In this document: positions 38,985 to 41,274 of the stretch, in pieces
Layout of the letters: each line of letters begins with the position of its first letter
Numbering within the stretch: the stretch's first letter is position 1
From: Peribacillus sp. FSL P2-0133
Lineage (GTDB): Bacteria; Bacillota; Bacilli; Bacillales; DSM-1321
Reading direction: 5' to 3'
DNA length: 64,000 nt
Assembly (NCBI RefSeq): GCF_037975445.1
Contig: NZ_CP150254.1
Span: 5,578,001-5,642,000 of the forward strand
Made by a program: the position numbers and the translations under genes
The notes under the pieces: model-generated
Database searches by the model: none
What the model saw: the letters and a program-made list of their open reading frames with translations, nothing else
Told to the model about the DNA's origin: nothing

Positions 38985-40034
38985 TTACACATGTTCCTTG
39001 ATGATTTGATGGCCTGCAGCCTTCTCAAGCCGGTTCATGACCGCAGCTCCTATTCCATGGTCAGGAAACATTTCACTAAAAATGACATCGACCTCCAGAT
39101 CGTCAAACTGTCTTAAAGCATCATATAAGCCTGTCGCAACAGTATGTAAATCCGCTAACGAACCTGGGACAACCACATAATCCGCCTTATAATCCTGTTG
39201 ATGTTCATAAGCCGTTATGATGCCCACCTTTAACCCGTCAGTTCTTTTTTCATCCACAAGCTTCTGAAGGAAAACTTGATTACCCTTGACTAAATATAGA
39301 GGGGCCTTCGGAGCATAGTGGGTATACTTCATGCCTGGGGCTTTTGGCGCCGTTTCCTGATTCTTCAATGCGACATCTTGCCTGACTTCCCCTATTACCG
39401 CTTCCAGCTGTTCCAGGGTCACCCCGCCAGGCCTTAAAATAACAGGTACTTCCACAGTACAGTCAAGTACTGTGGATTCTACGCCCACACCCGTAGTCCC
39501 GCCATCGACTATGCCTGCAATCCGGCCCATTAAGTCATCTTCAACATGTTTTGCTGACGTAGGGCTTGGTTTCCCGGAAGTATTTGCACTTGGAGCCGCA
39601 ATGGGCAAATCACTTGCACGAATAAGGCCTAGGGCAACCTGATGATCTGGCATCCTGACAGCCACCGTGTCCAATCCAGCTGTCACAAGGTTTGATAGCT
39701 GGCCCGGTTTTCGTTTCATGATCAAAGTCAAAGGACCCGGCCAAAATTCTGCCATTAGCTTCCTGGCCTGTTCCGGAATCTCTTCTACAATACCTGACAA
39801 CTGGTCATCGGAGGCTATGTGAACGATTAAAGGATTATCACTCGGACGCCCCTTCGCCTCAAACACTTTTTTGACTGCCTCATCATTTTTGGCATTCGCC
39901 CCCAGTCCATAAACGGTCTCTGTAGGAAAAGCAACCACTTGATTTGCCTTTAACAATTCAGCTGATTGTATAATCTGGGGATAACTTTGTAAATTATCCA
40001 CATTTTTATCCACTGACCAAATTTTCGTTTTCAT
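38985..40034 (-). CDS. ywlC: L-threonylcarbamoyladenylate synthase (Sua5/YwlC)
   Basis: The 349-residue protein makes threonylcarbamoyl-AMP for t6A37 modification of ANN-decoding tRNAs. The YrdC domain (about residues 20-205) includes VVAFPTETVYGLGANA, KGRPSDNPLIVHI and SANTSGKPSPT; a Sua5 domain follows (PGMKYTHYAPKAPLYLV onwards). The start at 40034 gives the B. subtilis-like MKTKIW; an in-frame GTG at 40046 is an alternative with AAAGG upstream. A DnaA-box cluster lies just upstream. Confidence 0.93.
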   Translation of the reverse strand: MKTKIWSVDKNVDNLQSYPQIIQSAELLKANQVVAFPTETVYGLGANAKNDEAVKKVFEAKGRPSDNPLIVHIASDDQLSGIVEEIPEQARKLMAEFWPGPLTLIMKRKPGQLSNLVTAGLDTVAVRMPDHQVALGLIRASDLPIAAPSANTSGKPSPTSAKHVEDDLMGRIAGIVDGGTTGVGVESTVLDCTVEVPVILRPGGVTLEQLEAVIGEVRQDVALKNQETAPKAPGMKYTHYAPKAPLYLVKGNQVFLQKLVDEKRTDGLKVGIITAYEHQQDYKADYVVVPGSLADLHTVATGLYDALRQFDDLEVDVIFSEMFPDHGIGAAVMNRLEKAAGHQIIKEHV

Positions 40035-40169
40035 CTTGAACACCATCGCCTTTTAACGTTTCTTATTTTATATAATTGCTTTTATATGAACGATTCTCTC
40101 AAATTATTGTAATAAATTCACTTAAAGATACTTTGAAAGTATAAAAGAACTATACACATAATTCAAGTG

Positions 40170-40275
40170 TTATCCACAAATTGGGGATAACCACATCGAA
40201 TCCGTGGATAAGTTTGTGGATATTAATGATTAATGACAGACTTTTTTGATTTTTTGTTAATAACCCTGTGGATAT
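40170..40275. promoter_or_regulatory. DnaA-box cluster in spoIIR-ywlC spacer
   Basis: One perfect TTATCCACA (40170-40178) and three one-mismatch copies on the other strand (40203-40211, 40215-40223, 40267-40275), plus TGGGGATAA at 40182-40190, lie within 106 bp. Such a density is far above chance. The homologous ywlB-ywlC spacer of B. subtilis is a known DnaA-binding locus. Confidence 0.75.
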
Positions 40276-40297: not shown

Positions 40298-40325
40298 AAA
40301 AAAAGAGGGCATCTGCCCCCTTTTT
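40298..40325 (-). terminator. spoIIR terminator
   Basis: An AAAGGGGGC/GCCCTCTTT stem with four-base loop overlaps the spoIIR stop, followed on the minus strand by seven T. Confidence 0.85.
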
Positions 40326-41274
40326 AAAATAGATCATTGAAGATTTCTGCAAACAGAGACTTCACTTCCACCTCAGGCTCCTTTTCCCCTTCATATAATT
40401 GTTGACCTTGTTTATTGGATGCCGCAAGTTCAACCTGTTTTTCTTCAACATTCCCATCAATGGCTTCCTCCTTCACTTCTTCCTTATCTATTGCTTCTGT
40501 CACTTGTTCCTTATCTTTTGCTTCTGTCACTTCTTCCTTTACTTCCGGCTCTGTAACCTCTTCTTTTACCGTTTCTTCCGGTACTTCTTTTACGCTCTCC
40601 TCCACTACCTTCTCTTCAACTACTTCCTCGGGCCCTTTTTCCTTATTAACCAGCACTTCTTCTTCAACTTCTTCCTCTGCACCCTCTTCATTTGTTGCAG
40701 CATACGCCTTCCCTTCCGAACTCAAGGATCCTTCATCCTCTTCCTCGACAATCGGACTTTGACTTACAGCCGTCCCATTTGAAAAATCCAGGAAACATAA
40801 TGGGGGAAATAGAACACACCACCAATTTGCGCCTTCCCCCTCCCCAAGCGTGATAATCACCGCTTCATAATCCCCTGCCGGATATAAATACTGCCCGTAG
40901 AGTTTTGTCGGAAATTCCGCTTGTCCAAAATCGACTTTAACTGACTGCTCCATACCCTGTTCCTTTATAACTGCCTCAGCCGTCGCTTGGATATCCGGAA
41001 GATGAGAGGTGATCACATCCCTCGCTTCATCCAAAGAAGTAAGTTCTTGGACCCATTTTGTGATATCTTCATTTACCTCATCCCTAATCAGCCGTTTAAC
41101 CGCTTGATCCTTTTCTGCATCACTATTAGCAAGTATCCGCAGACGAATCGCCTCATCCGGAATCACCTTCGTAGCTTCTGCACCGACCACCTCCGCTTTA
41201 GGCATATATATACTTACGATCGTTCCTATAGTTAAGATTAATAGATAAATAATGGCTAAATGTTTAGTTTTCAT
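40324..41274 (-). CDS. spoIIR: Stage II sporulation protein R with acidic C-terminal extension
   Basis: SpoIIR (316 residues) is secreted from the forespore and triggers SpoIIGA to process pro-sigma-E. It has an N-terminal signal/anchor (about residues 6-24) and the conserved core (IRLRILANSDAEKDQAVKRL; YLYPAGDYEAVIITLGEGEG; WWCVLFPPLCFLDF) up to about residue 190. The last ~120 residues are a Glu/Val/Lys-rich extension with repeats of the KEEVTE type; B. subtilis SpoIIR is about 224 residues. A perfect sigma-F promoter precedes the gene. Confidence 0.93.
   Translation of the reverse strand: MKTKHLAIIYLLILTIGTIVSIYMPKAEVVGAEATKVIPDEAIRLRILANSDAEKDQAVKRLIRDEVNEDITKWVQELTSLDEARDVITSHLPDIQATAEAVIKEQGMEQSVKVDFGQAEFPTKLYGQYLYPAGDYEAVIITLGEGEGANWWCVLFPPLCFLDFSNGTAVSQSPIVEEEDEGSLSSEGKAYAATNEEGAEEEVEEEVLVNKEKGPEEVVEEKVVEESVKEVPEETVKEEVTEPEVKEEVTEAKDKEQVTEAIDKEEVKEEAIDGNVEEKQVELAASNKQGQQLYEGEKEPEVEVKSLFAEIFNDLF

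Follow-up and report, generated by a model that had tools for sequence, protein, structure and literature searches.

A DnaA-box cluster of recurrent geometry at the promoter and first codons of ywlC (tsaC) in Peribacillus and related Bacilli

Why do DnaA boxes crowd the spacer between spoIIR and ywlC in Peribacillus sp. FSL P2-0133, and which function keeps them there? Work by Okumura in 2012 is said to place the ywlC region among the B. subtilis clusters outside oriC. DnaA clusters have been discussed chiefly as sinks for free DnaA. In B. subtilis, the region upstream of ywlC is one of eight high-affinity DnaA regions (region 6 in Table 1 of PMC4447404), with nine sites and Kd values of 0.25 µM (ATP) and 0.45 µM (ADP), and the same source describes ywlC as apparently repressed by DnaA. 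Moreover, expression of a PywlC-lacZ fusion was reduced in an arrA mutant, in which DnaA is raised about twofold, an effect that its authors credit to DnaA (PMC12112137).

The window analyzed here is the whole stretch of 64,000 nucleotides, in which a DnaA box was called as any match with at most one mismatch to TTATNCACA on either strand. Ten such boxes were found across positions 39976–40275 (300 bp): six of them in 40170–40275 (106 bp), three within the ywlC reading frame, and one in the promoter of that gene (Table 1). Two of the ten, at 40170 and 39994 on the plus strand, are perfect TTATCCACA boxes. Elsewhere in the window, the maxima were three boxes per 300 bp and two per 106 bp, and 200 dinucleotide-preserving shuffles of the window reached maxima of six and four, respectively. 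Over its full length the window has no excess of boxes (72 versus 70.4 in the shuffles); what stands out is only their clustering. Our results confirm a DnaA-box cluster that is larger than first noted. An earlier note on this DNA had counted five boxes, one of them perfect, within the 106 bp: a single perfect box does stand there, but the boxes number six, and the cluster itself, although real, is wider and takes in the promoter and ywlC codons. Between the two upstream box pairs, positions 40225–40253 consist of A-tracts followed by GTCTGTCATTAAT (minus strand), and are near-invariant in 19 close relatives despite holding no box. This stretch is perhaps the site of another factor, or bent DNA.

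Table 1. Features of the ywlC region, in window coordinates.
Feature	Position	Strand	Remark
ywlC / tsaC, L-threonylcarbamoyladenylate synthase, t6A tRNA modification	38985..40046	-	TIGR00057
Intragenic box TTATCCCCA (1 mismatch), inverted	39976..39984	-	18 bp beyond 39994 box
Intragenic perfect box TTATCCACA	39994..40002	+	12 bp from 40006 box
Intragenic box TTATCCACT (1 mismatch), in ywlC codons	40006..40014	+	
Sigma-A-like ywlC promoter TTGAAT-17-TATACT	40138..40166	-	9/12 consensus matches
DnaA-box-like CTATACACA within promoter spacer	40150..40158	+	
Promoter array box 4, perfect TTATCCACA, inverted	40170..40178	+	12 bp past box 3
Promoter array box 3, TTATCCCCA (1 mismatch)	40182..40190	-	21 bp past box 2
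Promoter array box 2, TTATCCACG (1 mismatch)	40203..40211	-	12 bp past box 1
Promoter array box 1, ATATCCACA (1 mismatch)	40215..40223	-	
DnaA-box-like TTATTAACA (1 mismatch), outer pair	40255..40263	-	12 bp from 40267 box
DnaA box ATATCCACA (1 mismatch), outer pair	40267..40275	-	box in 19/19 aligned close relatives
spoIIR, stage II sporulation protein R	40324..41274	-	TIGR02837; neighbour, not judged part of element

The genome is a single 5.81 Mb contig, with dnaA (TIGR00362) at its start and the box cluster that precedes dnaA at its end. Because dnaA sits at the contig start, the 192 kb from the ywlC cluster to the contig end are also its distance to oriC. The cluster is therefore oriC-proximal and lies upstream of a ywlC orthologue, but it is not oriC itself, since it does not adjoin dnaA or dnaN; dnaA and its box clusters are at the contig ends. 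Three bases separate array box 4 from the ywlC –35 hexamer. A promoter scan by itself did not exceed chance (four hits versus 2.3 expected). A terminator scan 3' of spoIIR called none, although a hairpin followed by a run of T can be made out there by eye. Among the 19 aligned relatives, the ATG at 40046 is not universal (AAG in L030, TTG in L032), but every one of them has the in-frame ATG at 40034; the latter is therefore the likelier start codon and may be the true one. SpoIIR carries a long Glu-rich C-terminal tail (about residues 171–316; window 40324–40765) beyond its family profile, the match to which stops at residue 170. Eleven relatives whose YwlC is 83–99% identical carry the names Peribacillus or Bacillus sp.

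To follow the cluster beyond this genome, an order set of 186 loci was drawn from 42 family genomes and 150 order genomes, five of them shared and one (G073) dropped because its best hit was only a partial ywlC match. At each locus, 400 bp upstream of ywlC and its first 60 bp (460 bp) were scanned. These stretches hold a mean of 7.39 boxes across the 186 loci, compared with 0.75 in shuffled sequence and 0.88 with the reversed pattern. When the 19 close relatives (L017–L035) were subtracted, with L001–L015 uncounted, at least four boxes remained at 152 of 167 order loci and fewer than four at 15. A class set of 62 loci outside the order, from 32 families (eight order loci removed; f71, f77, and f81 unsampled), had at least four boxes at 35 loci and fewer at 27, with none at all at 16. 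In the 19 distinct sequences of the close relatives, invariance extends to 58 of 63 non-coding box columns compared with 93 of 166 between-box columns (p = 5e-8), and to all 27 coding box columns compared with 35 of 63 other coding columns (p = 8e-6). The conservation that the earlier note expected is borne out both by this spacer alignment and by the order-wide count. Lastly, seven of the 15 low-box loci have a gene on the same strand no more than 110 bp from ywlC, as do 13 of the 152 others (p = 4e-4), and this scarcity of clusters beside a close same-strand gene fits the loss of a separate ywlC promoter.

Box geometry was read along ywlC, with signs for orientation and numbers for spacing in bp. 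The commonest promoter arrangement, upstream of ywlC, is box(+) 12 box(+) 21 box(+) 12 box(–), and the commonest intragenic one is box(–) 12 box(–) 18 box(+); their equivalents in the window are the boxes at 40215, 40203, 40182, and 40170, and those at 40006, 39994, and 39976. At one mismatch, the exact triple +21+12– is present in 76 of 167 promoters and missing in 91, and the intragenic triple –12–18+ is present in 57 of 167 gene starts and missing in 110; geometry is heritable, and the loci in these counts are non-independent. The commonest triple outside the +12+21+12– array was found in 15 promoters. Moreover, 67 of 68 intragenic –12– pairs start at position +32. A constant distance between the promoter and intragenic arrays was not found (85–231 bp in 57 loci).

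The 76 loci with the promoter triple were aligned as a module set; because they were chosen by the presence of the triple, the length of the 12-base spacer is thereby fixed. Its sequence is near random (0.25 bit per column), and the downstream DNA including the promoter carries 0.21 bit. Box 1, which lies outside the selection criterion, carries 1.15 bits per column, and the three bases that link boxes 1 and 2, mostly AAG, are also conserved (1.22 bits). Directly 3' of the array in these loci stands a –35/–10 pair with 17-base spacing, whose hexamers are moderately conserved at the same place (positions agreed at 43–76%). This TTG/TATACT-like promoter keeps a constant distance from the array, and the distance from the second box of the array to the start codon is variable (94–232 bp).

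Inside the gene, the boxes constrain silent positions of ywlC. Codon 12 is GTG in 128 of its 140 occurrences as valine, compared with 444 of 1537 valines elsewhere in the gene parts compared (p = 6e-50; the codon p values count related genomes as independent and are therefore too small, but the effect is large nonetheless). Likewise, codon 13 is GAT in 121 of 126 cases, codon 16 is GTG in 74 of 84, codon 22 is TAT in 79 of 83, and codon 23 is CCA in 101 of 114; at codon 17, GAT is weakly favoured (68 of 80, p = 0.02 on the same count). Such fixed spacing around a spacer of diverged sequence, together with the link to the promoter and the constraint on silent sites, argues for a complex with a required shape.

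Collectively, we read the cluster as the Peribacillus orthologue of the B. subtilis ywlC cluster, with DnaA-responsive repression of ywlC/tsaC as its role and titration as a shared effect, and give this reading a probability of roughly 0.8. By analogy with B. subtilis, DnaA in Peribacillus would bind cooperatively to the four-box array adjoining the ywlC –35, and would also bind the second array in the first ywlC codons. High free DnaA would then lower ywlC (tsaC) transcription and, with it, t6A synthesis. The site would probably take up DnaA as well, because it is strong and near oriC, and would do so jointly with other clusters; titration would follow from the same binding. The sign of the effect could also be the opposite, with boxes just upstream of the –35 activating the promoter. 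The link to tRNA modification that the earlier note proposed finds support through regulation of ywlC/tsaC, given the array against the promoter and the repression described in B. subtilis (PMC4447404, PMC12112137).

The alternative that survives best is a pure titration sink, in which the cluster would be kept only for DnaA binding near oriC and its placement at ywlC would be historical. We regard this as possible but doubtful. Loss of six non-oriC clusters in B. subtilis caused early initiation, which was partly relieved by re-inserting one cluster at various locations (reviews PMC5295017, PMC13220808), and ywlC is separated by 129–640 kb (median 190 kb) from mnmE, which adjoins oriC in the Peribacillus genome, in those 17 of 31 genomes with both on one contig, although draft contigs bias these distances toward short ones and one value presumes a circular contig. 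A contribution of titration, which the earlier note had suggested, is plausible on the strength of the deletions described in these reviews, but one of them states that none of the B. subtilis clusters is known to contribute significantly to the control of initiation (PMC5295017), and the other reports that about tenfold DnaA overproduction gave no over-initiation (PMC13220808). Moreover, titration calls for box number and affinity, not for recurrent spacing and orientation or a set distance to a promoter, and it calls for neither silent-site constraint at given codons nor a geometry specific to each cluster. The commoner loss of the cluster beside a close same-strand gene also speaks against a mere sink. 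Since recurrent geometry is unneeded for passive titration, regulation is favoured, and it is probably regulation, not titration, that maintains the geometry.

That the cluster serves spoIIR or the timing of sporulation, as the earlier note also proposed, is improbable. The cluster does sit in the spacer directly 3' of spoIIR in the Peribacillus genome, and the frequency of clusters drops somewhat where spoIIR is missing or stands elsewhere: within the order, at least four boxes were found at 151 of 160 ywlC loci with a same-strand spoIIR in the stretch versus 20 of 26 without one (16 of 22 where spoIIR was not found nearby and all four with spoIIR on the other strand), and within the class, the cluster is present at 33 of 55 loci of genomes with a spoIIR match versus two of seven without. 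However, this rarity is confounded with descent, as four of the six low order loci belong to one family (f36), and 22 of the 55 class genomes bearing spoIIR have no cluster. Six spoIIR loci without a nearby ywlC (L215, L217, L234, L235, L238, and L239) hold only 0–3 scattered boxes, whereas ywlC in three of those six genomes (L255, L047, and L254) has between 5 and 8 boxes (5, 7, and 8). The array is bound to the promoter and codons of ywlC, and the proposed link through spoIIR is not supported.

Rigid geometry is a feature of DARS, and the head-to-head 12-bp box pair is also found in the datA region. Still, it is very unlikely that the ywlC cluster works like E. coli DARS or datA, which would mean altering the nucleotide state of DnaA beyond binding it. 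We read the triple +14–12– off both E. coli DARS regions, the DARS1, DARS2, and datA regions having been picked by their gene neighbours. A DARS-like core at ywlC was rejected on this basis: the triple occurs in 0 of 167 ywlC loci, and a DARS-like role is unlikely because this spacing is missing from all of them. In addition, the affinities for ATP- and ADP-bound DnaA in B. subtilis are only about twofold apart (PMC4447404), and a review gives datA and DARS loci as absent from B. subtilis (PMC13220808).

Finally, it is scarcely credible that the cluster arose by chance or from base composition, or that it belongs to a different protein whose motif is similar: one-mismatch boxes are indeed as common in the window as in its shuffles, but about 0.2–1 box turns up in shuffles, with the reversed pattern, or at wrong-side edges of genes in the same genomes, and the most frequent match, TTATCCACA (471 of 1479), fits the published DnaA box TTATNCACA (PMC4447404).

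Further box clusters of the Peribacillus genome lie at dnaA, between dnaA and dnaN, 3' of tsaD, between jag and mnmE, and upstream of yqeG and rlmH; the stretches examined were those around listed groups of perfect boxes, and the clusters found are a lower bound. Comparison loci were the best 30 from 31 order genomes, among which the yqeG locus L400 (31% identity) may not be YqeG. On average, 7.17 boxes lie downstream of tsaD (at least four in 23 of 29 order loci) and, on the upstream side, 3.69 at mnmE (17 of 29), 5.27 at yqeG (26 of 30), and 6.83 at rlmH (26 of 30); ywlC in that genome set has a mean of 6.55 (27 of 31), and the opposite sides of tsaD, mnmE, yqeG, and rlmH have means of 0.23–0.83. 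The favoured spacings differ from cluster to cluster: –22–9– at tsaD (11 of 30 loci), +9– at mnmE (19 of 30), –8–13– at rlmH (18 of 30), and +15– at yqeG (22 of 30). The ywlC triples recur at one of 30 rlmH loci and at none of 30 loci each for tsaD, mnmE, and yqeG.

Several observations on these other clusters stand by themselves. Five conserved clusters are present in the Peribacillus genome, namely ywlC in the window and loci L202, L205, L207, and L210; four of the five conserved non-oriC clusters adjoin tRNA or rRNA modification genes (tsaC, tsaD, mnmE, and rlmH), which is offered as an observation and not as an enrichment. The yqeG/sda cluster (L207, positions 3987718–3987858 of the genome; yqeG loci L371–L400) has +15–11– in 13 of 30 loci, and its outer pair is 26 bp apart in 15 of 30; this triple is one base off the +14–12– of the E. 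coli DARS regions, which likewise spans 26 bp. At the sda promoter region of B. subtilis, recovery with ATP-DnaA was about 50-fold above that with ADP-DnaA at 55 nM (PMC4447404). Three further dense clusters, L206 (775393–775575), L204 (194980–195185), and L209 (5412195–5412370), with 9, 7, and 6 boxes per 300 bp, respectively, lie outside the eight high-affinity B. subtilis regions, as judged by eye from neighbouring frames, and are possibly lineage-specific.

The site itself is known from B. subtilis, and the basic finding is ordinary. What comparison adds is that spacing, orientation, promoter distance, and silent codons recur across the order, and do so differently for each cluster. We tentatively suggest, as an idea that may well prove wrong, that the non-oriC DnaA clusters of these Bacilli are locus-specific nucleoprotein architectures and not interchangeable sponges. 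The two-part ywlC array, half of it in the codons of a t6A gene, would read free DnaA and set tRNA-modification capacity; with the tsaD, mnmE, rlmH, and yqeG clusters, it would couple chromosome initiation to the translation machinery. If the geometry matters, DnaA would regulate genes for tRNA and rRNA modification here, and it is in this conserved geometry that the main interest of the site lies.

Compared with known systems, the ywlC cluster is like E. coli DARS1, DARS2, and datA in being a DnaA-box cluster outside oriC, but differs from DARS in that the core triple of the latter is missing. With the B. subtilis ywlC cluster it shares an orthologous gene, the same side of that gene, a cluster of boxes, and a place near oriC. 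The earlier note had equated the spoIIR–ywlC spacer with a homologous DnaA-binding spacer in B. subtilis: the counterpart is indeed a high-affinity DnaA region, but its spacer is not spoIIR–ywlC, the immediate neighbour there being ywlB. Recurrent geometry and intragenic constraint go unmentioned for the B. subtilis ywlC region in the available part of PMC4447404. The likeness extends to the other clusters of the genome. Those at dnaA, dnaA–dnaN, tsaD, jag–mnmE, yqeG, and rlmH have the same placement in B. subtilis, and the B. subtilis regions gcp(tsaD)/ydiF, jag/trmE(mnmE), yqeG/sda, and yydA, the last of which we take to be rlmH, all have counterparts in Peribacillus.
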